NCBI RefSeq assembly: GCF_004348455.1
Contig: NZ_SMKA01000005.1
Location: 1-64,000, forward strand
Origin: Kribbella albertanoniae
GTDB taxonomy: Bacteria; Actinomycetota; Actinomycetes; Propionibacteriales; Kribbellaceae
Direction of reading: 5' to 3'
DNA: 64,000 nt
Shown here: in pieces, positions 4,721 through 44,326 of the stretch
How the letters are laid out: each line of letters begins with the position of its first letter
Position numbering within the stretch: the first letter of the stretch is position 1
Program-made: the position numbers and the translations under genes
The notes under the pieces: generated by a model
What the model saw: the letters and a program-made list of their open reading frames with translations, nothing else
What the model was told of the DNA's origin: nothing
Database searches by the model: none

Positions 4721-4729
4721 AAGAGTAGG

Positions 4730-8432: not shown

Positions 8433-8594
8433 TGCCCTGCATCGGATGTTGTTTGAGTGATTGCGGCGTCCAGGTGCGTGCATCGCGGTGCCGGAGGAGC
8501 GGCCTCGATGCTTTTCCATCGTGGCTGTTCCTCCGGTGCCGTGAGGTGCGTGCCTGGGCGTCGCAAGCGCCAAAGAACATTCGATGCAGGGCAC
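8432..8594. mobile_element. 163-bp MITE-like hairpin element flanked by TA
   Basis: GTGCCCTGCATCG at 8432-8444 is repeated inverted at the right end (8582-8594), and the two 80-bp arms remain alignable to the centre (CGATGCTTTTCCATCG). Most arm differences are transitions that keep G-U pairing in RNA. TA stands directly outside both ends (8430-8431 and 8595-8596), the target duplication typical of IS630/Tc1-type elements. There is no transposase inside. It separates the convergent cyclase and ceramidase-like genes and contributes a base to both stop codons, so it may also serve as a bidirectional terminator. Confidence 0.75.
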
Positions 8595-10674: not shown

Positions 10675-10685
10675 CGGGGCACCCC

Positions 10686-11576: not shown

Positions 11577-11577
11577 G

Positions 11578-12951
11578 TCAGGCGTGGAACTTCTTGATCG
11601 ACGGGTCCTTCGCCGTCTCGTCGGCGTACTTCTGCATCTGCTTGCTCCACTCGTCGGGTGTGACCTCACGGTTCATCAGCGCGGCCATCGCCTTGTCGGA
11701 GCTGTCCAGCAACTTCTTGTACCAAATGCGGAACTGCCAGTCGTTGAACATGTTCGAGCCGGCCGCCGAGATCGCCTTCTGCATCGACTCGGCGGCGTGC
11801 GTCAGCTTGACGCCGTCGGTGCCGCCCTTCACGACGACCGGCGAGTTGGTCAGGCTGGCGAAGTTCTGCATGCACTTCTTCGAGATCATGATCCGCAGCA
11901 ACTCCAGCCCACCCTGCGGATTCTTGGCCTGCGCGGGCACGATCAGCGCGCCACCGGGCCCGCCGGTCAGCGTCTCGAACGGCGCCTTGTCGGAGGCCGA
12001 CCAGCCCGGGACCGGCATCATCGTCATCGCGAAGTCCTTCGGCGCATCCTGGCCGGACTCGTTCTCCAGCCAGCCGCCGCAGGGGATGAAGACCGCTTGC
12101 CCTTTGGCCCAGGAGGCCTGCGACTGCTTGTGATCGATGGCCTGCGAACCCTCCAGCAGGTAGCCCTTCGCGGCCAGCTCCTGGTAACCCTCCGCGGCCT
12201 GGATCAGCGCCGGGTCCCGCCACGCGTTCGGTTCGAGGTTGTCGACCTTCTTCTTCAGCTCCGGCCCGGCCGCCTTGTACGCCGTCATCAGCATCGGACT
12301 GGTCAGGTAGCCGGGGTACTTACCCTGGTAGGTCCACGGCGCGATCTTCGTCGACTTCTTGATCTCGGCGCAGAGGGCGAGCATCTCGGGCCACGTCTTC
12401 GGGTACGTCCAGCCATGCTCGTCCAGCAGCTTCTGGCTGAACCAGATGCCGCCGGTCCCGATCACGTAGGGCATCTCGTACTTGACCCCGTCGTACACGC
12501 CGTGTTCGGCGACGCCGGGCAGCAGGGTGTCCCTGACCTTCACGCCGGGCTGGTCGAAGGCCTCCATGTCGAGCAGCGCGCCGATGTCCATGACCTGCTT
12601 CTTCGCGGCCAGCGCGGCGCCGTCCAGACCGACGTTCTCGATCAGGTCGGGAGGGTTGCCCTGGATGAACCGGGGCTGCAGCTGCTGCTGGAGCTGCTGG
12701 CCGCTCGTCAGCTTCACGTTCGCCTGAGGAAACTCCTTGCGGTACAGGTCCAGTGGCATCTCGGTCCACTTCTTCCCGTATCCGCCATCGAAGTTGAAGA
12801 ACTCCAGCGGCTTGCTGCCGTCGACCTTCGCACCGAGGGCCGGCGCGGGCGCGGACTTCTCAACAACGGGCTTCGCACAGGACGCGAGCGCAGCCACGGC
12901 AGGCGCCGCCAGCGCGACGCGAAGAAGGGTACGGCGGTCGACTGTGCTCAT
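11578..12951 (-). CDS. Sugar ABC transporter substrate-binding lipoprotein
   Basis: A 457-residue lipoprotein. The N-terminus MSTVDRRTLLRVALAAPAV followed by an LASC-type lipobox gives a Tat-like signal with a lipidated Cys near residue 26. The rest has the two-lobed solute-binding fold of the extracellular family 1 type (for example AVFIPCGGWLENE, NSPVVVKGG). ATG at 12951 has GGAGAGG about 9 bases upstream; the longer frame is not needed. It is the first gene of the transporter part of the cluster, with a DasR-like site about 90 bp upstream, which fits uptake of an amino sugar or its oligomer. Confidence 0.9.
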   Translation of the reverse strand: MSTVDRRTLLRVALAAPAVAALASCAKPVVEKSAPAPALGAKVDGSKPLEFFNFDGGYGKKWTEMPLDLYRKEFPQANVKLTSGQQLQQQLQPRFIQGNPPDLIENVGLDGAALAAKKQVMDIGALLDMEAFDQPGVKVRDTLLPGVAEHGVYDGVKYEMPYVIGTGGIWFSQKLLDEHGWTYPKTWPEMLALCAEIKKSTKIAPWTYQGKYPGYLTSPMLMTAYKAAGPELKKKVDNLEPNAWRDPALIQAAEGYQELAAKGYLLEGSQAIDHKQSQASWAKGQAVFIPCGGWLENESGQDAPKDFAMTMMPVPGWSASDKAPFETLTGGPGGALIVPAQAKNPQGGLELLRIMISKKCMQNFASLTNSPVVVKGGTDGVKLTHAAESMQKAISAAGSNMFNDWQFRIWYKKLLDSSDKAMAALMNREVTPDEWSKQMQKYADETAKDPSIKKFHA

Positions 12952-13039
12952 GGGACGCGTCCTCTCCAGGGGATTGATTGGGACATGGATACGCCCGCGC
13001 GACCGGACTGGGGAAGAGGATTCGACCTGGATCGACAAG

Positions 13040-13055
13040 GTGGAGTAGACCACTC
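13040..13055. promoter_or_regulatory. DasR-like (dre-like) operator upstream of the sugar binding-protein gene
   Basis: GTGGAGTAGACCAC is an imperfect palindrome that differs at two positions from the core TGGTCTAGACCA known for the GntR-family GlcNAc regulator DasR. The 11-mer GTAGACCACTC (13045-13055) recurs upstream of the other half of the cluster at 17320. It lies in the 111-bp gap between nanE and the binding-protein gene. Regulation by a DasR-like protein is inferred. Confidence 0.5.
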
Positions 13056-13062
13056 TGATGGG

Positions 13063-13731
13063 CTATGACGTGCTGATCGCGCTCACCAGGCGGGCGGTGA
13101 TGTCCATCGGATTCGTGATCGCGTAGCCGACCACGACGGCGTACGCGCCCGCATCGCAGACTGCACGGACGTCGTCCGGCGTGCGAACCCTGCCCTCGGC
13201 AACGACCGGGCAGTCCAGCTTGGCCACCAACTGCCTGACCAGCTCGACGTCCGGTCCGCTCGGAGTGTGGCCATTGGTATAGCCGGACAGTGTCGACGCG
13301 ACCAGCTCGGCACCAGCTTCACGGGCCGCGATCCCGGCCTCCAGGGTGTCCACGTCGGCCAGAACCGGTACGCCGAGTTCTTCGTGGATCCGGGCGATCT
13401 GCTGGTCCAACCGCTGTCCGTCGGGGCGTGGTCGCCGGGTGCCGTCGAGGGCGATCAGGTCGGCGCCGGCCTTCACGATGTCGATCGCGGACTCGAAGGT
13501 CGGGGTGATGAAAACGCCGGACGGGTCACCGAGTTTGTTGATCCCGATGATCGGGAGCGCGGTGACCGCGCGGATCGCGGCTACGTCGGCAGCTCCGTTG
13601 GCGCGGATGGCGCCCGCGCCACCGGCCTCAGCGGCGCGGGCCATCAGGGCCATCGACTCCGGAGCGTGCAGCGGATTGCCGGGGGCAGCCTGGCAGGACA
13701 CCACCAAGGTGCCCGGGGCAAGAACTGTCAT
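13063..13731 (-). CDS. nanE: N-acetylmannosamine-6-phosphate 2-epimerase
   Basis: A 222-residue TIM-barrel protein with the NanE pattern: VVSCQAAPGNPLHAPESM at the start, AGAIRANG near 40, the catalytic-lysine strand PIIGINK near 65, then ALDGTRRPRPDG, LADVDT and VVAEGRVRTPDD. Length matches the family. It converts ManNAc-6-P to GlcNAc-6-P in the cytoplasm. It overlaps the upstream kinase by four bases (ATGA), so kinase and epimerase act in sequence. No sialic acid lyase is seen nearby, so the imported sugar may be ManNAc-like rather than sialic acid. Confidence 0.88.
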   Translation of the reverse strand: MTVLAPGTLVVSCQAAPGNPLHAPESMALMARAAEAGGAGAIRANGAADVAAIRAVTALPIIGINKLGDPSGVFITPTFESAIDIVKAGADLIALDGTRRPRPDGQRLDQQIARIHEELGVPVLADVDTLEAGIAAREAGAELVASTLSGYTNGHTPSGPDVELVRQLVAKLDCPVVAEGRVRTPDDVRAVCDAGAYAVVVGYAITNPMDITARLVSAISTS

Positions 13732-18226: not shown

Positions 18227-19312
18227 ATGGGTGACTTCAATGGGCTCGACGTCCATCTCGGCAATCTCGCGCGGCTGTCATCGGCCCGCACGTTTTCCAT
18301 CAGCGCCGAGAATCGAGACGGCGCCAAAGGCGGCGGGGCGCGGGCGACCGAGGGGACGATGTCACGGCAGGCCCGTGATCTCGGGGTCGGTTGGAAGATG
18401 TCCCCCTGCATCCCGCTGCCGGCCGGCTCGACCACGACGCTGGCCGAGATCGAGGGCTCGGGCGCGATCACGCACATCTGGATGACCGTCGACAAGAAGG
18501 TCTGGCGGTCGCTGGTGCTGCGCGCGTACTGGGACGGCGAGGACACGCCGTCGATCGAGGTTCCGCTCGGCGACTTCTTCTGCAGTGGCTGGGGTGAACA
18601 CGCGCAGGTCAGCTCGGTACCGATCGCGGTGAACCCGTCGGGCGGCTTCAACAGCTACTGGCAGATGCCGTTCCGCGCCGGTGCCCGGATCACCATCGAG
18701 AATCTGCAGGAGGTCGACGTACCGGAGCTCTTCTACCAGATCGACTTCGTACGCACCGAGGTTCCGGAGGACGCGGCCTACTTCCACGCGCAGTTCCGGC
18801 GGTCGAACCCGGTCCCGTACGGCGAGGTGCACACGTTGCTGGACGGCGTTCGGGGCCAGGGGCAGTACGTCGGCACGTATCTCGCGTGGGGCTGCAACAA
18901 CACCGGCTGGTGGGGTGAGGGCGAGGTCAAGTTCTACCTGGACGGCGACGACGAGTTCCCGACGATCTGCACGACCGGGACCGAGGACTACTTCGGTGGC
19001 GCGTGGGGGTTCATTCATCCGGAAGGCGTGTACGCGACGTTCACGACGCCGTACCTGGGAATGCCGCAGGCGATCCAGCCGGACGGATTCATGAAGAACC
19101 AGCAGCGGTTCGGCTTGTACCGCTGGCATCTCACCGACACCATCCGGTTCACCTCGGACCTGCGGGTCACCGTGCAGGCGCTCGGGTGGCGGCACGACGG
19201 CCGGTTCCTCCAGCTCCAGGACGACCTTGCCTCCACGTCGTTCTGGTACCAGACCTTGCCGCACGCGCCGTTCCCCTCGCTGCCTTCGCGCGATTATCTG
19301 GAGGTCATCTAG
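18227..19312 (+). CDS. DUF2961 (GH172) glycoside hydrolase-like protein
   Basis: A 361-residue protein with the DUF2961 signature: opening SSARTFSISAENRDGAKGGG, ITHIWMTVDKKVWRSLVLRA, VPLGDFFCSGWG, and the acidic motif TTGTEDYFGGAWGF near residue 250, where the family's catalytic Glu is expected. Characterised GH172 members act on alpha-D-fructofuranosides or alpha-D-arabinofuranosides through a jelly-roll fold as multimers. There is no signal peptide, so it acts in the cytoplasm. Its stop codon shares a CTAG with the stop of the convergent aldehyde dehydrogenase. Confidence 0.82.
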   Translation: MGDFNGLDVHLGNLARLSSARTFSISAENRDGAKGGGARATEGTMSRQARDLGVGWKMSPCIPLPAGSTTTLAEIEGSGAITHIWMTVDKKVWRSLVLRAYWDGEDTPSIEVPLGDFFCSGWGEHAQVSSVPIAVNPSGGFNSYWQMPFRAGARITIENLQEVDVPELFYQIDFVRTEVPEDAAYFHAQFRRSNPVPYGEVHTLLDGVRGQGQYVGTYLAWGCNNTGWWGEGEVKFYLDGDDEFPTICTTGTEDYFGGAWGFIHPEGVYATFTTPYLGMPQAIQPDGFMKNQQRFGLYRWHLTDTIRFTSDLRVTVQALGWRHDGRFLQLQDDLASTSFWYQTLPHAPFPSLPSRDYLEVI

Positions 19313-20730
19313 CCCTCGATGTTCGACATCACGTGCTTGATGCGGGTGTAGTCCTCGAGGCCGTACATCGACAGGTCCTTGCCGTGGCCGGAGTTCTTGA
19401 AGCCGCCGTGCGGCATCTCCGCCACGATCGGGATGTGGGTGTTGATCCAGACGCAGCCGAAGTCGAGCTTGCGGGACATCCGCATCGCCCGGCCGTGGTC
19501 CTTCGTGAAGACGGATGAAGCGAGGCCGTATTCGACGCCGTTCGCCCATCTGAGCGCTTCGTCCTCGTCGGAGAAGCGCTGGACGGTGATCACCGGGCCG
19601 AAGATCTCGTCCTGGATCGCTTCGTCGTCCTGATGCAGGCCGGACACGACCGTGGGCTCGAAGAAGTAGCCGCGGTCGCCGATCGCGTGCCCACCGGTCT
19701 GTACGGCGGCGTGGTCGGGAAGGCGGTCGACGAATCCGCGAACGCGGCCGAGCTGGTCGGCGTTGTTCAGGGCGCCGTACGCGACGTCGTCCTCGGGTTG
19801 TCCGGTCTTCGTCTGCTTGGCCTGCTCGGTCAGCGCGGCGACGAAGTCGTCGTGGATCCGCGGGCCGGCGAGGACGCGGGTGGCCGCCGTACAGTCCTGG
19901 CCTGCGTTGAAGTAGCCCGCACCTGCGATCGCTTCCGCGGCTGCCTCCAGGTCTGCGTCGTCGAAGACGACGACCGGGGCCTTGCCGCCGAGCTCGAGGT
20001 GGGTGCGCTTCAGCTTGCGCGCGGCCGACGACGCGACCTCGCGCCCGGCGCGAACCGAGCCGGTGATCGCGACCAACTGCGGAATGTCGTGCTCGACCAG
20101 CGCGCGGCCGGTGTTGCGGTCGCCGCAGACCACGTTGAGCACGCCCGGCGGGAGGAACTCGTTGCACACCTCGGCGAGCAGGACCGTCGAGGCGGGGGTG
20201 GTGTCGCTCGGCTTGAGGACGATGGCGTTGCCGGCTGCGAGGGCGGGCGCGATCTTCCAGATCGCCATCATCAGCGGGTAGTTCCACGGGGTGACCTGGC
20301 CGACGACGCCGATCGGCTCACGGCGGATCCAGGAGGTGTGACCGGGCATGTATTCGCCGGCTGACCTGCCTTCCAGGACACGAGCGGCGCCGGCGAAGAA
20401 GCGCAACTGGTCCACACAGGGCGGGATTTCTTCGCTCGCGGTGAGCGCCAGCGGCTTGCCGGTGTTGCGGCTCTCGACCGCGGTGAACTCGTCCGCGCGC
20501 TGCTCGATCGCATCGGCGATCTTGAGGAGTGCGCGCTGCCGAGCGGCCGGCGTACTGTCCCGCCAGCTCTCGAACGCCCGGGCCGCCGCGGTCATCGCCT
20601 GGTCCACGTCCTCCGGCCCGGACAACGGCGCCTGGGTGTACGACTCCCCGGTCGCGGGCGCGATCACGTCGTACGTCGCTCCACTCAGCGCGGCGGCGGG
20701 TTTGCCGTCGATGAAGTTGTTCAGGGGCAC
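19309..20730 (-). CDS. NAD-dependent aldehyde dehydrogenase (gamma-aminobutyraldehyde type)
   Basis: A 473-residue enzyme with the classical ALDH core: TPWNYPLMMAIWKIAPALAA, the general base in ELGGKAPVVVFDDAD (Glu near 246), the catalytic Cys near 278 in NAGQDCTAATRV, and EIFGPVITVQRF. GTG 20730 starts LNNFIDGK, the normal family N-terminus; the open frame upstream is shadow. The Gln-Asp before the Cys (GQDCTA) is typical of gamma-aminobutyraldehyde/betaine-aldehyde enzymes. It overlaps the amidohydrolase stop by about 10 bp and would oxidise aldehydes made by the nearby amine oxidases or aminotransferase. Confidence 0.88.
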   Translation of the reverse strand: MPLNNFIDGKPAAALSGATYDVIAPATGESYTQAPLSGPEDVDQAMTAAARAFESWRDSTPAARQRALLKIADAIEQRADEFTAVESRNTGKPLALTASEEIPPCVDQLRFFAGAARVLEGRSAGEYMPGHTSWIRREPIGVVGQVTPWNYPLMMAIWKIAPALAAGNAIVLKPSDTTPASTVLLAEVCNEFLPPGVLNVVCGDRNTGRALVEHDIPQLVAITGSVRAGREVASSAARKLKRTHLELGGKAPVVVFDDADLEAAAEAIAGAGYFNAGQDCTAATRVLAGPRIHDDFVAALTEQAKQTKTGQPEDDVAYGALNNADQLGRVRGFVDRLPDHAAVQTGGHAIGDRGYFFEPTVVSGLHQDDEAIQDEIFGPVITVQRFSDEDEALRWANGVEYGLASSVFTKDHGRAMRMSRKLDFGCVWINTHIPIVAEMPHGGFKNSGHGKDLSMYGLEDYTRIKHVMSNIEG

Positions 20731-33155: not shown

Positions 33156-34474
33156 ACCTCTGGGGCACTGCTGAGGTGACCCGGGCTCCGTTGGCTGGCG
33201 ACCGGGATGCCGATGTGGTGATCGTCGGCGCCGGGTACACCGGGTTGTGGACCGCCTACTACCTGGCGAAGGCCGACCCGTCGCTGCGGATCGTCGTACT
33301 GGAGCGGGAGACGGTCGGGTTCGGGGCTTCCGGGCGCAACGGTGGGTGGTGCTCGGCGTTGTTCCCGGCGTCGGCGCGGAAGCTGGCTGCGTTGCCGGGA
33401 TCAAGCCTTGACGCGGCGATCGCGATGCACCGGGCGATGCAGGATTCGGTCAACGAGGTCGGTCTGGTGAGCGCGGCCGAGGGGATCGACTGCGACTACC
33501 ACAAGGGCGGCACGATCGTGCTGGCCCGCTCGCAGGCGCAACTGGCGCGAGCCCGCTTGGAGGTGGCTTCGGCAGGCGAGTGGGGTCCGGGCGATCTGCG
33601 GTTCCTGGAACGTGACGAGGTGCAGGCCCATGTCCGCGCGACAAAGGTGCTGGGGGCAACATTCACGCCGCACTGCGCGGTGATCCATCCGGGGAAGCTC
33701 GTGCGTGGATTGGCCTCGGTGGTCGAGGGCCTTGGCGTGGTCATTCACGAGCAGACGCCCGTGGAGGTCATCTCTCGCGGAAGAGCCATCACGCCGTACG
33801 GCGTGGTGCGGGCTGAGGTTGTGGTGCGTGCGACTGAGGGGTTCACCGGGGGACGCGCGGTGGCGCCGGTGTATTCGTTGGTGGTGGCAACTGAGCCGTT
33901 GAGTACTGCGGTGTGGGATCGGATCGGGTTGGCGGATCGGCCTTCGTTCAGCGATCACCGGCACCTGATCATCTACGGGCAGCGGACTGCCGATGGGCGA
34001 CTCGTGTTCGGTGGGCGCGGGGCGCCGTACCACTTCAGGTCGCGGGTGCGTCCGGCGTACGACTCGGAGCCGCGCGTGTTCGCCAAGCTGCAAGGGACGT
34101 TGCGGGAGCTGTTCGGGCTCGAGGATCTGCGGTTCTCGCATGCGTGGGGCGGGGCGCTCGGCGTACCGCGGGACTGGTGCGCGTCGGTCGGGCTCGAGGA
34201 CGGGCTCGCGTGGGCGGGTGGGTATGTCGGCGACGGCGTCAGTACGACGAACCTGGCCGGACGCACGCTCACCGACCTGATCCTCCGCCGCGACACCGCC
34301 CTGACCCGCCTCCCCTGGGTCGGCCACCACTCCCGCCCCTGGGAACCCGAACCCTTCCGCTGGCTAGGCATCAACACCGGCCTCCGAGCCATGACCTTGG
34401 CCGACACCGAAGAACGCCTAACCAACCGCAACAGCCAATTGGCCCGCCTGATGGCGCCGTTGCTCGGTCATTAG
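33140..34474 (+). CDS. FAD-dependent amine oxidoreductase (DAO family), second copy
   Basis: A 444-residue flavoprotein with GxGxxG at 30-35 (VVIVGAGYTGLWTAYYLAK), the loop GFGASGRNGGWCSALFP and the late FAD motif WAGGYVGDGVSTTNLAGRT. Its motifs match the oxidase at 27100. The GTG at 33140 lies inside the Lrp gene (16-bp overlap), and no better start is seen before the FAD motif. Co-translation with the regulator is likely. It probably oxidises the same class of imported amine as its paralogue. Confidence 0.84.
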   Translation: MGCALNLWGTAEVTRAPLAGDRDADVVIVGAGYTGLWTAYYLAKADPSLRIVVLERETVGFGASGRNGGWCSALFPASARKLAALPGSSLDAAIAMHRAMQDSVNEVGLVSAAEGIDCDYHKGGTIVLARSQAQLARARLEVASAGEWGPGDLRFLERDEVQAHVRATKVLGATFTPHCAVIHPGKLVRGLASVVEGLGVVIHEQTPVEVISRGRAITPYGVVRAEVVVRATEGFTGGRAVAPVYSLVVATEPLSTAVWDRIGLADRPSFSDHRHLIIYGQRTADGRLVFGGRGAPYHFRSRVRPAYDSEPRVFAKLQGTLRELFGLEDLRFSHAWGGALGVPRDWCASVGLEDGLAWAGGYVGDGVSTTNLAGRTLTDLILRRDTALTRLPWVGHHSRPWEPEPFRWLGINTGLRAMTLADTEERLTNRNSQLARLMAPLLGH

Positions 34475-34600
34475 CCCACCCGTGCACGTGATGCCAGGTG
34501 CATGTGGATTAGCCCACCCGTGCATGTCATTCCGGGTGCATGCACTTGCCCCACCCGTGCACCTGATTCGAGGCGCACGGATCTTGCCCACCCGTGACTG
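34471..34600. repeat. Three and a half imperfect 38-bp direct repeats
   Basis: Units begin at 34471, 34509, 34546 and 34584 (partial), each opening TTAGCCCACCCGTGCA or TTGCCCACCCGTG. Inside each unit a short stem can form (TGCAC/GTGCA in unit 1, TGCAT/ATGCA in unit 2, GTGC/GCAC in unit 3). The paired bases change together, so structure may be under selection. The repeat starts on the oxidase stop codon and is followed by a terminator hairpin. No CRISPR-like spacers exist. Confidence 0.7.
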
Positions 34601-34623
34601 AGGTTGGATGGCACCGCGGTTTG

Positions 34624-34659
34624 AAGGGTGCGGCATCGTTGAATCAAGGCCGCACCCTT
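34624..34659. terminator. Hairpin between convergent genes
   Basis: AAGGGTGCGGC pairs perfectly with GCCGCACCCTT across a 14-base loop. It sits 5 bp beyond the stop of the minus-strand gene at 34665 and after the 38-bp repeats on the plus side, so it can end transcripts from both directions. Confidence 0.6.
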
Positions 34660-34664
34660 ACGCG

Positions 34665-35429
34665 TTATTCGGCCTGGGGCTCCGGCGTCGCGACCCAGAT
34701 CGGGGTGCCCAGCATCACAAGGCTGTACCTGCCGCTTTCCCCTGGACTAAGACCGTGAAACGACAGGTCGACGTCCCTGGCCGTGTCGTACGGCCGGAAC
34801 AGTACGTCCATCCTGTCTGGTCCCTGCGTTGCTGCGGTCGTGTAGATCGTGGCAGCCGAGCGCAGTCGGGATTGCAAGCTCAGGTCACGGTCCCATTCGA
34901 GAAACTTCGTCGCGACGACAGGATCTTCAGGCTCGGCAGCGTCCGCGAGTATCTGGTACATCCCCTCCGCGTCGGACGGCATCCAACCACCTGAGTACTC
35001 CTCGTCGGCAACCCCGAGGAAGTTCGTCGCAGAGCCGAAGAGCCCGGGGAAGATACTTCCTACATCAGGGACCTCGACGTCGGCGAAGAAGCAAGCGACT
35101 CGCACGTTCTGCGCTCGGTCCCAGCCCATGTGTACGGGGATCGCACCCCACGAGAGGTCAACGGTCGCCCGCACATAGTGGCCAGGATTCGCCAGGGTGC
35201 CGGTGTTATCAGAGACCACGTCGATGGCGCGGCGGGCGACGTCGTAGATATTGGTGCGATCGACCTCGCGGAGCCCAACCTCTGCTGAGACGCCAGCAGC
35301 CTTGGCCCCGAGGTTGAGGCCGACCTTCCTCAGCCACTTTGAGCGTGGCGCCGCATCCTGACCGACTATCTGCCGGGTCAGCCGACGCGAACAGTACTTC
35401 ACGTCGACCGGCCAGTTGTCCGTAACCAC
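34665..35429 (-). CDS. Hypothetical protein of an accessory region
   Basis: A 254-residue soluble protein without a recognised motif. There is no signal peptide or membrane segment. It opens with a basic region (VKYCSRRLTRQIVGQ), has a Gly/Ala stretch (VGLNLGAKAAGVSAEVGL) and an aromatic beta-rich centre (LSWGAIPVHMGWDRAQNVRV). It may resemble the small actinobacterial DUF7019-type proteins, but I cannot confirm this. GTG 35429 has GGAGG six bases upstream. It stands at the border of the accessory region and its base composition is close to that of the core genes. Confidence 0.6.
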   Translation of the reverse strand: MVTDNWPVDVKYCSRRLTRQIVGQDAAPRSKWLRKVGLNLGAKAAGVSAEVGLREVDRTNIYDVARRAIDVVSDNTGTLANPGHYVRATVDLSWGAIPVHMGWDRAQNVRVACFFADVEVPDVGSIFPGLFGSATNFLGVADEEYSGGWMPSDAEGMYQILADAAEPEDPVVATKFLEWDRDLSLQSRLRSAATIYTTAATQGPDRMDVLFRPYDTARDVDLSFHGLSPGESGRYSLVMLGTPIWVATPEPQAE

Positions 35430-36004
35430 GGATCGCCTCCATCCTCATTGTCCGTCGCTGCGGCTCGACGCCGTTCCCTGCTCACGAGTATGGGCGGACC
35501 GTCGCAAATTGAGACGAAGCAGGTCCGGGTGGCTCCTGAGCAAGCGAGCCAGCCAGCCGGCTCTCATTCCAACTCCCAGACCCGGAATCATGCTCCGGTC
35601 TGCGGCAATGACTTCTGAGTCTCTAGGATGTTGGCCGAGAGTACGCGATTCGAACTCGTGAGGGGTTGCCCCAACACGCTTTCCACGTCCCCAATCAGCC
35701 GTTCAACGTTCGCCCAGGGCCGTGCACGCGGGCCACATCGTCTGGGAACCTAGCTGAACGTCCCCGACCGGATGCGGATAAGACGAGTTTTGAGACTGCT
35801 CTCTGGCGGCTGAATCGGGCGCCCTTGAGCCAGCCGGCGGCAGACTCCCGGGGAGAGTGTCGATCAGCTTAGGAACTGCCTTGTCAGCCACAGAAACGCC
35901 TGAGCGCGCCGACGCCTAGATGTCATCCGAGTTCGTCGAATCGTTGTAGACCGCCCCCGACTTGCGCGATCCCTCAGATCGGGCACGGATCCGGCACGCC
36001 CCGC
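35430..36004. other. 575-bp gene-free stretch carrying a tRNA fragment
   Basis: No convincing protein-coding frame is seen. The only structured item is the tRNA-Ser 3' fragment at 35632-35684. Base composition falls from here to the right, which marks the start of the AT-richer island. Confidence 0.5.
35632..35684 (-). other. 3' fragment of a tRNA-Ser gene, probable attachment-site remnant
   Basis: On the minus strand the 53 bases run GGAAAGCGTG (end of a GGA anticodon loop and stem), then TTGGGGCAACCCC (the long variable arm typical of tRNA-Ser), ACGAGTTCGAATC (T arm), ACTCTCG (acceptor 3' strand) and GCCA. The 5' half is absent: the sequence before GGAAAG does not look like a tRNA. Fragments cut at the anticodon loop are the usual trace of integrases that use tRNA 3' ends. 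No intact tRNA-Ser(GGA) partner was found in this window. Confidence 0.7.
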
Positions 36005-38647
36005 CTAGAGCACTGCTGCGTAGTCGCGGAACCTCTCAAGCGTGTCTGTTGGGATGCGGCCTAGGTCGGTCTCCATCAGCTGTGCCGTGACAGCTTCAGA
36101 GAATACGTGGTCGAGGTCAGTTAGGGTCTTGAGAACATCAAGCGATCCGTCGTCGACTATCGACCGAGCGCAGGTGTGAGCGACGGTGAACGCTCCGCTC
36201 TCCTGGGCGCCCGCACCAACTTGCATGGCAAGGCGTACGATCTCAGTCGGATTCTTTGCAGTGGATGCCCAATCCGAAATCGCGTTCCACGCAACCCGAA
36301 ACTGACCGGGATCGAGACGGACTGCAGCAAGGCATAACGCAGACAAAGACCGAACGCTGAGTGTCTCGAACTTTGGAATTCTTGCGACTTCGCGAAGTCT
36401 CGTTACGACCATTTCGAATGCCTCGCGCTGCCTGAGGCGCAGTGCCGTCACGCCTGCGCGCCGCAGCCAGGTAGTTAGGTGATCGGGCCTGTACTGACTG
36501 ATATCGGCGACCGAGAGTCGCCCGATGAAAATGACCGGCGTCTGTTCCTCTGGTCCAGAGGCCGAGAGACAATGATTGAAGACGACGTCGGCAGCCTTCC
36601 GGACTCCATCATCGCTATTGCTTGTGGCTGAAACGAGAAGTGTCATTACGTCGCGCAGGACTGGACTGACTGGATACACGGTGGAGAGTCCAGATCCGAG
36701 ATGCGTGCCGCCATCATCGCGAGTGTGCTTCGCTCGCAGTCGCGAACGCTCGGTGCTAGCCCGCAGAAGGTGTTCGGACAGAATGCGGCTGGCCTGCTCT
36801 GCGATGGCCTCTCCCAGTCGAACGTCGCCAGTCTTCGCGCTGTTCAAGGCGAGCGAGACCAGGGTGACAGCCTGAATGCTCACCTCCTCCAGTGGTCCAG
36901 CATCGACTGGCCTCAACCACTTGCGCAGCCTCTTTTGAAGTGACATCGGCAACTTTTGGGAGGCCGGCGGCTTAACATAGGCGATTGTGTCCCCAGCCGA
37001 GGCGATCAACCCGAATTGCGAATTGAACTGAATATGTGCACCATCTGCAAAGACCGGATCGGACAGAACTCGCAGCGCCTGGCGACGCTTTGGTAGTAGG
37101 ATGCCATGGGTCGGGGCGTCAATCTGCAATATGTCATGACCAACCATATGGCGAGCGCCGGTTCCAGCGGATGGCAGCGAATCTAGCCCCTTCCACAGAT
37201 GTGTTGCCCAGAATTGCGTGGAACCGAATACAGAGCTTGCTCGATTCCATTTACGGAGATGTCGGTCGACGTACGATTTACATGCCTCGGCCGGGTCCGT
37301 CCTGTGGAAAATCCGAAACATCGCGGCTGCCATCCAGCCGACCGATGCGATAAGGAGAGCCGCCTGGAGGATGGGCCAGATCTTCGGCGTCGGCGTTGGT
37401 GTATACGTCGAAGTCGATAGCAACGATAGCGCCGCTATATACGCGGCCGCCAGATGCCAGGGTTGCCCGGCCACCCGCGCGACCGCCCCAGGGAGTCTTT
37501 GTGTCGATAGTTGCACTGTAAACACGTTTATAGTTGCAATGAGAGCAACGATGGCAATCGCCCCCTCTAGGGGCATCGCCGCAAGTGAAATTTTTGCAAG
37601 CCACTTCCATTCGATATCACGGTGGGTAGAAATGATCAAAGCGACGATCGCCGGCGCGGCTACGAGAATTACACTTAAGGCGAATCCGGTTGCAAATGTG
37701 GTGATCTGTTCACCGAACCGGCGAGTTGGCGAAGGCAATGAAACCTTGGGCGCTGTGCGGAGTGATGTGTCCGCAGCCTTCGCAAACCTTTCTGCCTCGT
37801 GACTGCTCAACATCAGCGTCTTATTGATATTCATGAATGATGCTGCTGATTCAGTCCCTTTGCTCCGAACGCTTTGCGCCAGGAGATCTAGTGCGACAAT
37901 TCGTTTCGGACCACTGAGGGTTGCGCACAATTTTGTGAGATGCGATTCAATCTCTGGGCGTTGCGCTGCTAGATCTACTAGTGCCGCTGAGGCGCCCGGT
38001 CTCCTGGAATTGGAGTCATAAGGGTCGAGAGGAGCGCTCGCGAGGTGCCAAATCTTGTCAAAGACAGCCAATGTTTGGCGCTCAGGCAGGCTCGCGGCGA
38101 CGTGTCGAACCTGAAGCAGCATCAGATCCAGCAAGCTTCCACCAAGCCCTGCCGGGCCGTCCAAGACAATCGCCTCATAAATCGTCTGCGGCAACTCTGC
38201 GTCAAGCCGGTAGTTGTCCGTGAACCATCGGAGTCCAGTTGTCTGGAGCGATATCGGGAGCTTCGAAATGTCCGTAAGGATGTCTCTGGCGGAGGCCGCT
38301 GTCGCTGGTTGGCCGCTTAGAATCAGAAATAGCAATCTGTCAGCACTGAGGCCCGCCTTCAATATGTCGCGATGCTCAACCGAGATTGAGTTCGACGCGA
38401 CGGCCAGCAACACCGTGAGGCGGTTAATGTAGTCCGGGAGCGGCGTCCTCGTGGCTGTGTTGAGCCTTCCGACTCGTCCCAGTTGCGCCAGGCTGAACGC
38501 TGCTGAACGGCTATAGCAAGTTCTTGCGGTACGCCGAAGCGCCGAGGCTAGTAGGTCACATCTGGTAATCGGCTCAGGAACGCTTAGAGCCGTGGTGACC
38601 AGAGCGCTGTGAGCGAGTTGCTTGCCTGAGTTCGCGTCAACAGTCAC
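36005..38647 (-). CDS. Large membrane protein of unknown function, second gene of a coupled pair
   Basis: An 880-residue protein that I do not recognise. Residues 1-300 are helical and soluble. A membrane block follows with about four segments between 300 and 440 (GFALSVILVAAPAIVALIIS, GAIAIVALIATINVFTV, AAYIAALSLLS, ILQAALLIASVGWMAAAMF). The last 440 residues are again soluble and helical (TPR/HEAT-like in appearance), with no Cys/His metal site and no P-loop. It starts with GTG overlapping the stop of the upstream gene. Codon use is clearly less GC-biased than in flanking operons, a sign of transfer. Confidence 0.7.
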   Translation of the reverse strand: MTVDANSGKQLAHSALVTTALSVPEPITRCDLLASALRRTARTCYSRSAAFSLAQLGRVGRLNTATRTPLPDYINRLTVLLAVASNSISVEHRDILKAGLSADRLLFLILSGQPATAASARDILTDISKLPISLQTTGLRWFTDNYRLDAELPQTIYEAIVLDGPAGLGGSLLDLMLLQVRHVAASLPERQTLAVFDKIWHLASAPLDPYDSNSRRPGASAALVDLAAQRPEIESHLTKLCATLSGPKRIVALDLLAQSVRSKGTESAASFMNINKTLMLSSHEAERFAKAADTSLRTAPKVSLPSPTRRFGEQITTFATGFALSVILVAAPAIVALIISTHRDIEWKWLAKISLAAMPLEGAIAIVALIATINVFTVQLSTQRLPGAVARVAGQPWHLAAAYIAALSLLSTSTYTPTPTPKIWPILQAALLIASVGWMAAAMFRIFHRTDPAEACKSYVDRHLRKWNRASSVFGSTQFWATHLWKGLDSLPSAGTGARHMVGHDILQIDAPTHGILLPKRRQALRVLSDPVFADGAHIQFNSQFGLIASAGDTIAYVKPPASQKLPMSLQKRLRKWLRPVDAGPLEEVSIQAVTLVSLALNSAKTGDVRLGEAIAEQASRILSEHLLRASTERSRLRAKHTRDDGGTHLGSGLSTVYPVSPVLRDVMTLLVSATSNSDDGVRKAADVVFNHCLSASGPEEQTPVIFIGRLSVADISQYRPDHLTTWLRRAGVTALRLRQREAFEMVVTRLREVARIPKFETLSVRSLSALCLAAVRLDPGQFRVAWNAISDWASTAKNPTEIVRLAMQVGAGAQESGAFTVAHTCARSIVDDGSLDVLKTLTDLDHVFSEAVTAQLMETDLGRIPTDTLERFRDYAAVL

Positions 38648-40005
38648 TCGGCCACCTGGACAGCGATCCTGGGAACGTCCGGTTGCATGATCTCCATCCC
38701 AGGGAAGTAGATCGGTGACTTCGGCTCCGGCATATGGACCGCCGCTGGGTTGAAGATTTCGACCGAAGCCCTGGAGAGAGCTGCCAACTGTTGCTCGGCC
38801 AGCTTCTGGGAAACCTCTGGCCAGTCTCCGACCTGCGCACGTGCATCCGGGAATTGTTGCATCACCTTGGCGGACAGAAGCATGTGAAGGAAAGATTCAC
38901 GATTCGCAGTGGTGATAACCAAAGGCTCGAGAATGCTGAGGCCGAGCGTAGACCCGAGTTGCTTACCTCCCTTCACCGGAAGGACGGGAGAGATCTTCAC
39001 TGGAACATGTTCTCGATTTACAAGGGCGTGTTTCTCGGATATTTCCAAGATATCCTCCGGTCTAATCACCCACGGATTTTTCAGAGGCACAGCTTCCATT
39101 GACAGGAGGCCCATTCCGCAAACGAACCCATCTCTTGCCATTTGGGCCGTTAGCGACGGTATTCCACCGATCTCCAGGAGGTCACGGGCCTTCTGGAGCA
39201 TGCTCTCAGGACCGGGGCCCGTGATCGTCCACCCTTGGGTGAGAACGTTGACGATCTTGTCGATGGTGAGACGAGCATTAGGCATGGAGTTGTAGACATG
39301 TCTGACCAGCGGCATTCGGGTGCGGATTTGCTCAGCGGCGAGCAGCGGGGCCTCGTATCTGACATTCAAGGTGAACCCGCTCGCATCTGCGCGAGCGCGT
39401 ATTGCGTGGCACGCATTTTGCCATCCGTGATTTCGGATTTCGGCACCGACCAGGTTAGTGGTCTCCTGGTCCACCCGAGCTGCTTGATCAGGCAGAGATG
39501 GAATCTTCTCTTTAGGGGTTCTCCTAACGAGATCCTGCCGCGCGACCAGCATCGCCAGCGCAGTTAGCGTTGACTCGATCTGTGTTTCAATCGAAGAGTT
39601 GAGGACGCATGCCCAGATCGATGGCGATTCCTGCGAACTGTCGGTTGGCGACTGTATCGTCACCCCGGGGCTATTCAGCAGGGTTTCGAGTGCAGCCGAG
39701 TCGATCCAGTCCGCCATCTGCTCGCTTGCCCAATCGTGCCCCAAAGCCTCCAGGCGTGGGATTGGGCGGGGCGCTTGGTTGTCTGCATGAATAGGCAGGA
39801 GCCAGAACCCAAACAGCTTCGGATTCAAGAAGCCGGGTTGCTCGTAGTGTCCCACCCGTACGTAGAGGTGGTTGTCTGTCTTGCTGTCGCGAGTCGAACT
39901 GACCTCTGAGCAAAGCTCTTGGAGGAGGGTGGACGACGCAGTGCGATGTTCGTCGGTGACCTCAGCGGGCTCTGTGCGGTCGTCTGGCATAGGAATGTAG
40001 GCCAC
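38644..40005 (-). CDS. Soluble protein of unknown function, first gene of a coupled pair
   Basis: A 453-residue protein with no membrane helix, signal or known catalytic motif. Visible parts are an acidic start (MPDDRTEPAEVTDEHRTASS), a central segment with NSMPNARLTIDKIVNVLTQG and a C-terminal EPKSPIYFPGMEIMQP. GTG 40005 is the longest start; ATG 39990 (MPDDRTEP) is a good alternative, since neither has a clear ribosome site. It overlaps the 880-residue membrane protein by four bases, so the two are made together. Base composition is foreign like its partner. A defence or membrane-stress role is possible but unproven. Confidence 0.65.
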   Translation of the reverse strand: MAYIPMPDDRTEPAEVTDEHRTASSTLLQELCSEVSSTRDSKTDNHLYVRVGHYEQPGFLNPKLFGFWLLPIHADNQAPRPIPRLEALGHDWASEQMADWIDSAALETLLNSPGVTIQSPTDSSQESPSIWACVLNSSIETQIESTLTALAMLVARQDLVRRTPKEKIPSLPDQAARVDQETTNLVGAEIRNHGWQNACHAIRARADASGFTLNVRYEAPLLAAEQIRTRMPLVRHVYNSMPNARLTIDKIVNVLTQGWTITGPGPESMLQKARDLLEIGGIPSLTAQMARDGFVCGMGLLSMEAVPLKNPWVIRPEDILEISEKHALVNREHVPVKISPVLPVKGGKQLGSTLGLSILEPLVITTANRESFLHMLLSAKVMQQFPDARAQVGDWPEVSQKLAEQQLAALSRASVEIFNPAAVHMPEPKSPIYFPGMEIMQPDVPRIAVQVAE

Positions 40006-40269
40006 GATCGGGATTGTGGCACGCAGCGCGTCTGCGGGGTAGGCGCCAGCGTCGGTGCGGGCACAGCAGTCGGCGTCGCCAGAGTCCGGGTCGTCCTGGA
40101 AGTGCAGGGTCTGTGTATAGGCCGCGCCGGAGCCTGGCCAGGCTTCGGCAACCGGCGATCTATGGACGGGAAGCGAGAGCCTTACTGGTCAGCATCTTCG
40201 AAGAGATCGCATAGCAACTAATCGCAATTCCAATGGCCGCGGCCTGCTGCGCATTTCTAGGCTCAAATC

Positions 40270-40446
40270 ATGAATACGGGAATGCTCGTGTTGTCGTTTG
40301 GTACCGGCGTCATCACCGTGCTGATGATCGTGGACTGCCTGCACGACATGGCGAGGCGCCAGTGCCTGACCGCCTCCGGCTGCTTCTATCCCGATGGTTC
40401 ACGCGACTCAGATCACTTCCGGCGTCTCCGCGACGATGACCGATGA
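40270..40446 (+). CDS. Small membrane protein, hypothetical
   Basis: A 58-residue frame: one hydrophobic helix (GMLVLSFGTGVITVLMIVD) followed by a polar tail (FYPDGSRDSDHFRRLRDDDR). It has an in-frame stop directly overlapping the start of the recombinase-like remnant downstream (ATG 40436). No clear ribosome site. It could be a real small protein or the debris of a larger gene. Confidence 0.4.
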   Translation: MNTGMLVLSFGTGVITVLMIVDCLHDMARRQCLTASGCFYPDGSRDSDHFRRLRDDDR

Positions 40447-40780
40447 GGCGAAGCCCCGCCCGGTGGTGCTCGGCTACTTCCGCCAGCACCTCTTGATGAC
40501 TCAGACCGAGGTTCGTACTCGACGCAGCAACTTAGCTACTTCGCCGAGGCGCAAGGCTTCACGCTCGCAGAGGTGTACATCGGGCAGATCGAGACTTGGC
40601 CGATGGCTTTGAACTCCTCGTCGCGCACGCCATGCGCAAGGGTGTCGGCGGGGTCTTGCTGCCGAGCATGCTGCATTTCGCCGTGCTCGGCCCTCCCAAG
40701 TCGGTCACCGAGCATTTCGAGCACGTCACCGGAACTCGGGTGTATGCCGTCCCCGAGTTGGTGTCGTACAGAGCAGGTGT
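40436..40780 (+). pseudogene. Frameshifted resolvase/recombinase-like small protein
   Basis: Three successive frames together read as one protein: VVLGYFRQHLLMTQTEV from ATG 40436, then TQQLSYFAEAQGFTLAEVYIG in the next frame around 40519-40590, then ADGFELLVAHAMRKGVGGVL and PSMLHFAVLGPP in the third from about 40599. Intact actinobacterial proteins with this order resemble the catalytic-domain fold of serine recombinases, though they are short and lack the DNA-binding part. Two frameshifts make it non-functional. The exact end is uncertain. Confidence 0.6.
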
Positions 40781-40965
40781 GGCGGCGTCTAATTCCTGCA
40801 TCGGCGCCCCCACACCGAACCACCCAGCAGGAAGTCGGGGAGCTTGACGGCCTCAGACCCATCTCGTTGAGCGCCGCGGCGGGCAGTCACGGGCCGGCGG
40901 CCGCAATCACCTCGCCTCGAAGCACGTGCACGGGTGGGCTGAACTACCTCCGCCCCGGCCCGTGG

Positions 40966-41322
40966 CTAGGTGATGCCGGCTTTGGCGTCGAGGTGTTGGA
41001 GTAGGTTGTGGGCGGCCAGTTCGATTTTCTTGTGGCGCCATTCGGAGGCTCGGTAGACGCAGGTGATCAGGCCTGTTCGGTGGATGCGGCGGAGGTCGCC
41101 GTACACGAAGCCGTAGCGTGCCTTGGTCTCATCGCTCGCGCCTTCGGTGAGGCCGAGGTGCCAGGCCGAGTACTCGGCCCAGGAATGCTTCTCCAGGAAG
41201 GCGTTCTGCGCATCTGCGCGCGGCTGCACCGAGCCCCAGTCGCTGTCGAGCACGTACTGGCGGGAGTCGATCAGCTTCCGCGCGTACTCGACCGCGACCT
41301 CGTTGACCTCGTAGTTGGCCAT
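40966..41322 (-). CDS. Conserved actinobacterial hypothetical protein
   Basis: A 118-residue soluble protein with a strongly conserved look: VAVEYARKLIDSRQYVLDSD near the start, then EKHSWAEYSAWHLGLTEGA and RIHRTGLITCVYRASEWRHK. I recognise the type from actinomycete genomes but know no function. There is no signal or membrane segment. It stands alone, and its GC-rich codon use is that of the core genome, unlike the pair at 36005-40005. Confidence 0.7.
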   Translation of the reverse strand: MANYEVNEVAVEYARKLIDSRQYVLDSDWGSVQPRADAQNAFLEKHSWAEYSAWHLGLTEGASDETKARYGFVYGDLRRIHRTGLITCVYRASEWRHKKIELAAHNLLQHLDAKAGIT

Positions 41323-41393
41323 ACCAATGCCTGTTCCCAGCCGCTAACGCACCAGCTCATCAGATCAAGCCACGCCGGGCTGATGGTCAGAGC

Positions 41394-41771
41394 TCACGGC
41401 CTGTTCGAGCCGACGAAGAACTCCGAGGCCAGCAGGCCGGCCACCAGAACGACCGGCAGGTAGACGGCGAAATGCCATCTGAACGTGGTGATCCTAGCCA
41501 GGATGGCCACCCCGATCGGTGCGTAGACGAAGCCGCTCATCACCGCGTAGGTCGAGGTCACATCAGTCATGTAGGCCAAGATATGGGTCGGCAATCCGAC
41601 GATGCCGGCCGCGGCGTAGGCATAGCCGAACGCGCGGCCCGACGAGTTCGCCGGCAGCCACACCTTCCATCCAGGCGGCGGCGGTCCCCAGCTCGGATCC
41701 GGCTGCCAGCCAGGCTTCGGCCGCCAACCCTCAGGTGGCGGCGGCCAGTTCGGTGGCGGGTTGTAGATCAT
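41394..41771 (-). CDS. Small membrane protein with Pro/Trp-rich N-terminus
   Basis: A 125-residue protein. Residues 3-36 are nearly all Pro, Trp and Gly (YNPPPNWPPPPEGW, then GPPPPGWKVW), followed by three hydrophobic helices. The Pro/Trp repeats resemble the N-terminal tails of other actinobacterial membrane proteins that sit at the cell pole or septum. ATG 41771 opens exactly at this region; the frame upstream is not protein-like. Function unknown. Confidence 0.6.
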   Translation of the reverse strand: MIYNPPPNWPPPPEGWRPKPGWQPDPSWGPPPPGWKVWLPANSSGRAFGYAYAAAGIVGLPTHILAYMTDVTSTYAVMSGFVYAPIGVAILARITTFRWHFAVYLPVVLVAGLLASEFFVGSNRP

Positions 41772-41969
41772 CCTCGGCTCCCGTCGATCGGCCCTCGCTC
41801 TCCGAGTCTCCGCACCTCCCATGACATTTCGATGACAGCAAGACCGCCGACCAGCATTGCCCGCGGACCGCCGCCACTGACCAACTCCGGCTGGCTGCGG
41901 GTCTCCCGCCTGGGGATCGAGTGAATCCGGGCGATTTGAGGGGTTGGTGAGTGGCTGGGGTCCGCTTTC

Positions 41970-42599
41970 TCAGTGAAGGGCAGGCTCGGGGTGCAGGGTG
42001 GCCAGCGGGAGGCCGGACAGGTGGAGGGTGGGGTGTAGCCAGTCGTTGAGGATGGGGGCTTCGGTGGCTAGGTGGTTGGCTAGTTCGGTGCGGCTCAGTT
42101 CGAAGACGTGGGCGGGGTTGCCGGTGAGGTCGACGACGGTTTGCATGAGGCGGCCGGCTTGTTCGTTCCAGAGGGGATCGTTGGCGTCGAGGTCGTCGGG
42201 GCGGATGAGCAGGAGCTCGACGTCGGACTCGAGGTCGCCGTCGGCGCGGGCCAGGGCGCCGTACACGGAGGCGTGGACCGGCGGGAGGCGCCAGGCGGTC
42301 AGTTCGTCGGCGATGCGGTTGACGAGGGCGGCGCGGAGGTCGGCCAGGAACTCGACGACCGGGGCAGCGAGGTGCTTGCGGTTCAGCCGGTAGGACAGGG
42401 AGTTGCCGGCGTCGTCGACGTGGACGAGGCCGGTGGCGGCGAGCCGCTGGAGGACCAGGCGGACCCCGGCCACACTGCCCTGACCTGCAAGTTTGTGGAC
42501 CTCACGCCCCGACAACCCCTCGTCCGCCCGAGCCAGGACCTGGAGGACCGGCCCGTCCAGGGAGGGGATCACGGTGCTGATCGGCGTCTTCAGGTCCAT
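41970..42599 (-). CDS. Winged-helix plus nucleotidyltransferase-fold protein
   Basis: A 209-residue protein. Residues 15-75 form a winged helix (VLQVLARADEGLSGREVHKL). Residues about 95-150 match the start of the pol-beta/MNT nucleotidyltransferase fold, with ASVYGALARADGDLESDVEL where the family has G-S-x-ARGD-x-x-SD-D/E-x-DL. The second Asp of the usual pair is Glu here, so activity is uncertain. Proteins of this design are found beside toxin-antitoxin genes. It lies 74 bp downstream of, and in the same direction as, the DprA/phosphoribosyltransferase pair. Confidence 0.68.
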   Translation of the reverse strand: MDLKTPISTVIPSLDGPVLQVLARADEGLSGREVHKLAGQGSVAGVRLVLQRLAATGLVHVDDAGNSLSYRLNRKHLAAPVVEFLADLRAALVNRIADELTAWRLPPVHASVYGALARADGDLESDVELLLIRPDDLDANDPLWNEQAGRLMQTVVDLTGNPAHVFELSRTELANHLATEAPILNDWLHPTLHLSGLPLATLHPEPALH

Positions 42600-42672
42600 G
42601 ACGAGACAGTAGTAACCGATCAGCTCCGCAGAGTAATCATCCTGATCTGGAAGTATTCCTGGGCGGCGGCGA

Positions 42673-43407
42673 TCAGCCGTCCAGGGCGCAGACCGAGAGG
42701 TCGAACTCTGCCGCACGCGCTCGCTCGACCAGCGCCTTCGACCCCGCGTGGGCACCGTTCACATGGCGACCCAGGACAACGGTCACGACAGCCTGCGCAC
42801 CCGACACCTTCAAGGCATGAGCAAGCGACTGTGCCCTCGAGCCCGTGGTCCAGGTGTCATCAAGCAGCAGGACCCGAGCCCCGTCGACCGGGGGTGCGAC
42901 GAAGCGATCGGGCTGGAAGGTTCGGTCGTCGGGGGGATGGTGCGCACCGATTGCGACTGCCAGAAACGGCAACGACAGACCTGGAGCGAGGAGCGCTTGA
43001 AGCGGATGTATCCCAGTCCGTCCACGGGTGCTCGGAACTACTGCCGCGTGGGTCAGGCGGCCGCCCGCTGGACCTTCGAGGCAGCGTCGATGCGTGCCGA
43101 GGAACAGCATGCCGAGCGCGCGAAGCGCGCCACGAGCCGCCTGCGAGGGATGCTCGAACTTGTAGGTGGCCAGATGGTGCGCGTGCTGCTTACCCTTCAG
43201 CGCATAGGCGATCGGCACGACAGCGTCCGCGATCATCCTGCTTCCGTCTCGATGACTCCGGCAGGGAAAGCAGATGTCGTAGGCATCCTTGGCGGCCGAT
43301 CTGCAGACACGGCAGATGCCAGGTCCCTCGGGCAATGGGTTACGCAGAAAGACTGCCTGGCGGGCCACCGACGCCCGGAACGACTCCAGTGGATCAGAAC
43401 TGGACAA
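42673..43407 (-). CDS. ComF-like phosphoribosyltransferase (ShosT-like candidate)
   Basis: A 244-residue protein with an N-terminal zinc ribbon (CRVC near residue 32 and CFPC near 46) and a phosphoribosyltransferase domain whose PRPP loop is VLLLDDTWTTGSRAQSL near residue 175. The TTG start at 43407 lies inside the DprA-like gene (14-bp overlap), with AGGAA about eight bases before. ComF proteins act in DNA uptake. In ShosTA modules a PRTase toxin is paired with a DprA-like antitoxin, and this gene pair has the same two folds. The toxin role is inferred. Confidence 0.75.
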   Translation of the reverse strand: MSSSDPLESFRASVARQAVFLRNPLPEGPGICRVCRSAAKDAYDICFPCRSHRDGSRMIADAVVPIAYALKGKQHAHHLATYKFEHPSQAARGALRALGMLFLGTHRRCLEGPAGGRLTHAAVVPSTRGRTGIHPLQALLAPGLSLPFLAVAIGAHHPPDDRTFQPDRFVAPPVDGARVLLLDDTWTTGSRAQSLAHALKVSGAQAVVTVVLGRHVNGAHAGSKALVERARAAEFDLSVCALDG

Positions 43408-44326
43408 CGGTCGACAGTTCCTGCGGCGACTCGAAGCCTCCGGCAGCTTCGGCGACCAGCTTCTCGGTCACCGCCAGAAGTTCCTCGGTGTTGTCCACGA
43501 CGTACACGCCGGGACGCTCCGCGTAGTCGCGAGCCCAGTCATGCTCGAGTAGCTCACGCGGCATCACGACCGGCCGTCCGTGCTGCAGCGCCAGCCGCGC
43601 CTGGATCCGGGCGCCACTGCGCCACGGCGCCTCGACCACGACAGTGGCAGCGGCGTACCCACTCATCACCGCGTTGCGCATCGGAAAGGTCTGCTTCGTC
43701 GGGGCACCGTCGGGCCAGAACTGGCTGAGTACCAGACCCCTCCGACCGATCTCCTGCTGCAACTGGGCGTTGGCTGCCGGGTAGGCGCGCCGAATGCCAG
43801 TCCCGATCACAGCGACGGTCCGGCCCTGCGCCTGCAGTGCGGCCGTGTGGGCTGCGGTATCGATTCCGGCGGCAAGCCCACTGACAACCGTCACATCATT
43901 CCTCGCGAGCGCCGTAGCGACCGTACGAGCGATACCAAGCCCCCGCGCACTGGCCTGCCGGGTACCCACGACGGCGACAGCTCTTCGATCATCACGCACT
44001 TCACCCCGCGTGAAGATGACCGGAGGCAGTTGATGAACATCACGAAGCTGTGCCGGGTAGCTCGAGTCGTAGAAGGCGTGAACGCCGATACCTTCTGCTT
44101 CCCACTGCTGGATGTCGCGCTCGGCCTTGTCCAGAGCAGCCTGGGCATCACCCACCGCGAAGAGCACGTCACCCCCAGCGAGATATCGCTCCAGGACTAC
44201 CGTCGCGCTTCCCAGCTCCAGGACTTCGGCGGTCACCTCCGCCCAGCGGACCCCAGGTTGCTGCAGCAGCGCAACCAGCGCGGCCCTCTCTGCCCGGATC
44301 GGCTCCACGAACCAGATGTTATCCAT
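43394..44326 (-). CDS. DprA/Smf-like protein (ShosA-like candidate)
   Basis: A 310-residue protein whose core is the DprA Rossmann fold: AVAVVGTRQASARGLGIART near 117-136, VTVVSGLAAGIDTAAHTAAL near 145-165, AVIGTGIRRAYPAANAQLQ, LSQFWPDGAPTKQTFPMRNA, and PWRSGARIQARLALQHGRPV. The C-terminal winged helix of full-length chromosomal DprA is missing. True DprA loads RecA in transformation. Standalone DprA-like proteins also serve as antitoxin or sensor in defence modules. The gene overlaps the phosphoribosyltransferase and has its own upstream palindrome. Confidence 0.78.
   Translation of the reverse strand: MDNIWFVEPIRAERAALVALLQQPGVRWAEVTAEVLELGSATVVLERYLAGGDVLFAVGDAQAALDKAERDIQQWEAEGIGVHAFYDSSYPAQLRDVHQLPPVIFTRGEVRDDRRAVAVVGTRQASARGLGIARTVATALARNDVTVVSGLAAGIDTAAHTAALQAQGRTVAVIGTGIRRAYPAANAQLQQEIGRRGLVLSQFWPDGAPTKQTFPMRNAVMSGYAAATVVVEAPWRSGARIQARLALQHGRPVVMPRELLEHDWARDYAERPGVYVVDNTEELLAVTEKLVAEAAGGFESPQELSTVVQF

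Follow-up and report, generated by a model that had tools for sequence, protein, structure and literature searches.

The first 64,000 nucleotides of contig NZ_SMKA01000005.1 from Kribbella albertanoniae (assembly GCF_004348455.1, forward strand), a stretch referred to here as the window, carry two adjoining genes, P2 and P1, that a preliminary description of this DNA had put forward as a candidate undescribed anti-phage system. Both open reading frames (ORFs) and the overlap reported between them are present:

38644–40005, minus strand: P2, the soluble 453-residue partner and first gene of the pair (ORF; its homologue adjoins a P1 homologue in 3/3 other loci; without family match)
36005–38647, minus strand: P1, the 880-residue membrane protein and second gene of the pair (ORF, homologues and membrane segments)
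38644–38647, minus strand: four-base GTGA overlap, comprising the P2 stop and the P1 GTG start (sequence)

The GTGA overlap suggests that translation of P2 and P1 is coupled. The G+C fraction of the pair is 0.573 compared with 0.665 and 0.670 in the flanks, bearing out the earlier remark that its base composition is unlike that of either side. Relative to the nearest homologue, from Kribbella sp. ALI-6-A, the differences at codon positions 1, 2 and 3 amount to 0.26, 0.16 and 0.59 in P2 and to 0.34, 0.23 and 0.65 in P1; third-position changes predominate, and both genes thus look to be under coding constraint. Neither protein could be named at the outset, nor did P1 or P2 find a convincing match in Pfam, NCBIfam, PADLOC or the sequences of the PDB. 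When the eight proteins of the four loci described below (P1 and P2 of each) were compared with PADLOC-DB 2.0.0 at E ≤ 1, the sole match was a weak and stray one to Cas11 (0.007), from the P2 of locus L007.

Homologues and the elements that carry them

Whole genomes were searched with proteins and profiles, and removal of misreads left the pair in four, namely that of the window, Kribbella sp. ALI-6-A (G006; locus L005), G044 and G818, the last being a draft of 88% completeness whose locus could be misassigned. Both genes are present, adjoining and in the same order at all four loci, and neither was ever found singly or in a housekeeping context, an outcome that the preliminary description had named as counting against its proposal. 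The genes overlap by four bases in the window and in L019, and are separated by 2 bases in L005 and by 4 in L007. Identity to the window proteins, P2 before P1, is 66 and 59% in L005 and 49 and 41% in L007 (tblastn), and falls to 29 and 26% in L019 (alignment).

The distribution of the pair is rare and patchy. Carriers number 3 of 293 relatives (one spurious match dropped), 3 of 391 genomes of the order, 2 of 394 genomes of the class, 1 of 396 genomes of the phylum (two spurious matches dropped) and 2 of 341 genomes of the family of G044. The window genome is counted wherever it was among those searched, and the samples overlap. Two scans of genome contigs returned nothing in one case and the ALI-6-A locus only in the other, and no homologue of the pair was found among plasmids and phages by tblastn or among viral contigs by pattern scans. 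Among the genome matches dropped, those of L004 and L009 are located within a gene read as unrelated, that of L014 in a Wzz/kinase-like ORF and that of L015 in a CinA-like ORF, the last two named by ORF reading.

In Kribbella sp. ALI-6-A, the 3' part of tRNA-Ser(GGA) recurs exactly at L005 positions 3574–3628 and 18511–18565, and the two copies form the attachment (att) repeats of an intact-looking, 15-kb actinomycete integrative conjugative element (AICE) inserted in tRNA-Ser(GGA). Between these copies lie tyrosine-integrase-like, AAA and primase-polymerase-like ORFs, an FtsK-like TraB, an SpdB-like ORF, an XRE/TPR regulator and a flavoprotein-like ORF, each named by ORF reading, with additional matches to helix-turn-helix models for the regulator. 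The pair is the last cargo ahead of the right att and lies, as befits AICE cargo, between the two att repeats of an element that has integrase, replication and FtsK-like transfer genes.

Relatives of the L005 integrase at E ≤ 1e-100 occur in 14 of 38 genomes of the genus, and the pair is found in none of 13 further integrase-bearing stretches (0/13). A right att copy stands 12–17 kb from the left copy in six of these (L070, L071, L074, L076, L081 and L082). The slot ahead of the right att was catalogued in eight stretches, and ten cargo proteins were scanned from six of them (L070, L073, L074, L076, L080 and L081, with L071 and L082 left out). In L073, this slot of a tRNA-Ser AICE holds PD-Lambda-5 A and B (7054–9427; 4e-29 and 7e-102). 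The AICE cargo of L080 (13311–16662) is comprised of a C5 methylase (PADLOC, 4.5e-95) with an AAA_5 ATPase (2.5e-12), and that of L076 (13982–16012) of a 676-residue HATPase protein (HATPase_c_3, 8.5e-14; PADLOC type II restriction, 7e-7); both are possibly further defence systems. The cargo of L070 and L074 gave weak PADLOC matches only, and that of L081 gave none. The att-proximal slot of tRNA-Ser AICEs presents itself as a place to seek more systems.

The two remaining loci place the pair among other mobile and defence-type genes. In L007, an integrase-like ORF (18448–19971, named by ORF reading) lies approximately 120 bases from the pair, which is situated downstream of a MobF-like relaxase ORF (9575–12328; named by reading, with matches to RecD-like helicase models too), and a BREX-like operon consisting of a BrxC piece, PglX, BrxHI, PglZ and BrxA occupies positions 48–8113. 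In L019, BilD-, BilC- and BilB-like genes (11113–13650; 2e-17, 7e-12 and 2e-4) and a CapP-like peptidase (4.5e-33) stand ahead of the pair on the same strand, while an E1-like gene (DUF6791-ThiF) and a second CapP-like peptidase are found on its other side.

The position beside an att site in L005, along with the integrase-like and relaxase-like ORFs of L007, would also suit a pair that serves the AICE itself, its membrane protein and cytosolic partner acting in entry exclusion, in superinfection immunity between elements or as an accessory to septal DNA transfer. Such a role is unlikely, given that the pair is missing from the 13 other integrase-bearing stretches and is thus not needed for transfer, that its G+C content in L005 (57.5%) is unlike that of the AICE core (67.8%), and that no AICE transfer gene was recognised near the L019 copy. 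A function in the envelope or in nutrition, as ordinary accessory cargo, is distinctly unlikely. It would accord with the AICE transfer and auxiliary genes described in passages of PMC3218068, the latter reported there as varied, and with the presence of DUF2254 proteins, to which P1 is compared below, in 15 of 57 genomes of the order; against it stand the highly patchy distribution of the pair, its islands shared with defence genes, and family searches that matched P1 and P2 to no enzyme, transporter or metabolic family.

The island in the window and its neighbours

In the window, the pair lies in an island that has the following landmarks:

34468–42002, no strand: 7.5-kb island holding the pair, absent from 5/5 testable genus-mates
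35621–35685, minus strand: decayed copy of the tRNA-Ser(GGA) 3' end, the AICE att (89% identity over 66 bases)
35584–35631, minus strand: continuation of the att match into AICE left-end DNA (window 35584–35685 to L005 3574–3679, 84% over 106 bases)

Matches to either side of the island stand 31–1400 bases apart in the five genus-mates; the stretch from L083, a sixth genus-mate, does not reach across the site. The decayed att, located approximately 320 bases past the point where P1 ends, substantiates the tRNA fragment of the preliminary description. The window order of pair, att core and left end would be expected of tandem copies or an excised circle rather than of a simply integrated element, and the element has here decayed to the 7.5-kb island. 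The recombinase-like remnant that had been proposed nearby was not recovered, as the L005 integrase had no match among six-frame peptides of window positions 34.4–44.3 kb and no recombinase domain was detected in the two neighbouring ORFs scanned; nor did anything in the window genome match the ALI-6-A integrase under the strict threshold of E ≤ 1e-100.

Two further features were observed within the island. A DUF7019/SAVMC3_10250-like protein is encoded at 34665–35429, where it has the left junction on one side and the decayed att copy on the other, and at that junction (34473–34600) lie several imperfect copies of a repeat containing CACCCGTGCA.

At the opposite end, a gene with helix-turn-helix and nucleotidyltransferase regions (41970–42755) matches PADLOC PDC-M05A. 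As a possible third component it was ruled out for the window, being present at 70–76% DNA identity in 5/5 testable genus-mates without the island, with insertions to either side of it. A nucleotidyltransferase gene in L007 that matches the same PADLOC models (PDC-M05A, 1.7e-18) diverges from the pair. Beyond this core gene, at 42673–44215, the ShosTA-like pair noted earlier is recognised by PADLOC, with a DprA-like gene (ShosA, 8e-65) and a phosphoribosyltransferase-like gene (ShosT, 8e-4). In L084, approximately 490 bases separate the matches that flank window 42.6–44.4 kb.

Anatomy of P1 and P2

Three segments of the two proteins bear on their possible roles:

37304–37708, minus strand: P1 membrane block, residues 314–448 (hydropathy)
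36590–37675, minus strand: predicted DUF2254-like core of P1, residues 325–686 in the wide alignment to which these positions refer, 364–624 by default (hhalign with controls)
38743–39132, minus strand: weak HK97-portal-like segment of P2, residues 292–421, a lead only (profile comparison)

P1 is predicted to be a membrane protein in which a DUF2254-like core of membrane helices and a barrel-like segment is flanked by two cytosolic α-solenoids. The window copy contains three stretches with a Kyte-Doolittle (KD) value of at least 1.5, and the copies of L007 and L019 contain more, which makes the four-helix membrane block of the preliminary description a fair reading. With six basic residues on either outer side of the block, both ends of P1 are predicted to be cytosolic. 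The AlphaFold model of P1, with a mean predicted local distance difference test (pLDDT) score of 56.7, is usable solely for the helical stretches at about residues 70–290 and 590–840. Foldseek and VIA-align retrieved designed helical repeats and HEAT-like proteins with Z up to 13.6, close to the level warned to be common for helical repeats, and no specific fold is therefore claimed.

The likeness to DUF2254 emerged from profile comparison. In hhalign, the four-sequence P1 profile scored 38.4 (P 8e-4, probability 25%, 234 columns) against 15 DUF2254 proteins from the order, and the alignment is collinear over P1 residues 364–624, or over 325–686 at a lower threshold, reaching DUF2254 positions 3–361. 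The highest scores among 220 shuffled controls were 23.6 (60 half-wise), 22.7 (60 local) and 24.0 (100 full column), and other controls gave 18.9 and 16.2 (reversed profiles), 18.4 (SpdB), 19.1 (TraB), 14.6 (integrase) and 15.3 (HK97-type portals). Leaving out one row at a time kept the score at 32.0–41.1, with just 59 columns aligned when L007 was omitted. Several results count against a DUF2254-like core: the isolated membrane block scored only 20.6 and single P1 sequences 18.7–25.7, and neither the invariant P-R after the second helix nor the D and T of the N-D-P-x-T-A motif, both features of the 15 DUF2254 proteins, is in register in P1. The Pfam model (PF10011) matched none of the four P1 homologues at E ≤ 10. 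On balance, the P1 core is predicted to be DUF2254-like rather than a DUF2254 member.

P2 has no hydrophobic segment and is predicted to be soluble, as had been supposed; its structure model has a mean pLDDT of 40. By eye, the C-terminal half resembles the core of phage portals, a likeness that was then tested with profiles. The P2 profile scored 19.9, which is noise level, with 8 HK97-type portals and 29.4–29.5 (P 0.002–0.006) with 16, a result that depends on the L019 row (17.6 without it). Removal of one of the other rows gave 21.4–30.4, and L019 alone gave 26.2. The controls reached 24.4 at most in 150 shuffles, 15.4 when reversed and at most 15.7 with unrelated profiles, and HK97-type and SPP1-type portals score 21.3 when compared with each other. 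SPP1-type portals were tried against P2 and set aside as noise (12–18), and the lambda portal did not match. No Pfam family, the HK97-type portal PF04860 included, was matched by the four P2 homologues at E ≤ 10, two weak and unnamed families were all that they matched in PHROGs, and no HK97-type portal was found in 24 genomes of the class. Resemblance of the P2 C-terminal half to portals is thus a weak lead. P2 might be envisaged as a domesticated, portal-like protein, a phage structural fold captured by an integrative element as an intracellular decoy or sensor that joins or recognises the packaging machinery of an incoming phage, with P1 as a DUF2254-derived membrane effector firing the response; we regard this as quite improbable, and no described defence system is known to sense infection through a portal homologue of its own.

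The coupled order of a smaller and then a larger gene, the membrane partner and the mobile setting would also fit an addiction module akin to toxin-antitoxin systems, where P1 damages the membrane unless held by P2 and so keeps the element in its host. P1 and P2 are both large for a classical module and matched no toxin-antitoxin family in the family searches, and this is the least probable of the readings weighed here.

A candidate defence module and its relation to known systems

We favour the view that AICEs and related islands of soil bacteria carry the pair as a self-contained cargo module, which most likely serves in defence against phages or mobile elements, and to this view we assign a probability of roughly one half. 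This view draws on pairing in 4/4 loci down to 26–29% identity, the att-proximal slot in an AICE, defence-type genes in the slots of 3/6 scanned sister elements, empty sites in 5/5 testable genus-mates, BREX-like and Bil-like neighbours, a patchy distribution and the DUF2254-like core. In such a system, P2, alone or with the solenoids of P1, would detect a product of the invader in the cytosol, the P1 core would then act at the membrane by causing a leak or blocking entry, and the infected cell would fail or the invader would be excluded.

As a raw count in partial support of a defence function, two of the three other loci have a recognised defence operon within about 6.5 kb of the pair. A number of observations weigh against this function. 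The ShosTA-like pair of the window is a second, separate insertion outside the island, on the far side of the core gene. A convincing defence match is absent from the cargo of three of the six scanned sister elements, and AICE cargo may serve other purposes. No catalytic motif or known sensor domain was found in P1 or P2, and a limited literature search found no known function for DUF2254, which passages of PMC11184937 treat only as a predicted knotted membrane family. The proposal of an undescribed anti-phage system is partly supported, in that homologues occur only as a pair and matched no metabolic family; that the pair acts in defence is likely rather than settled.

A literature search by limited terms found no publication on this pair. 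Passages of PMC11706625 associate another defence-linked gene with AICEs, and those of PMC10482375, a 2023 survey, relate that 3 of 131 detectable systems had been found or tested in Actinobacteria, where ShosTA tends to reside on plasmids and PD-Lambda-5 in prophages. If confirmed, the pair would constitute an undescribed two-gene defence system from Actinobacteria, and DUF2254 would gain its first testable role.

Comparison with known families and systems sets the pair apart from each. P1 has in common with DUF2254 (PF10011) the order in which a soluble, barrel-like segment with conserved glycines comes after a membrane block, but adds two α-solenoids and a gene partner, fails the Pfam model and loses the P-R and N-D-P-x-T-A motifs in register. 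P2 residues 292–421 present G-N-x-Y-like, proline and G-L-S-x-L motifs in the same order as HK97-type portals (PF04860), a weak and L019-dependent likeness, whereas capsid, terminase and protease genes were not recognised beside P2. PD-Lambda-5 occupies the sister AICE slot and BREX and Bil share islands with the pair, yet none has a sequence relation to P1 or P2; the ShosTA-like pair, 2.7 kb away, is likewise unrelated in sequence. In passages of PMC11984713, SpbK of ICEBs1 is an abortive infection defence borne by an integrative conjugative element and triggered by a phage portal protein. Although SpbK is a single TIR NADase and P1 and P2 are without a TIR match, the pair would resemble it as a defence carried by such an element.

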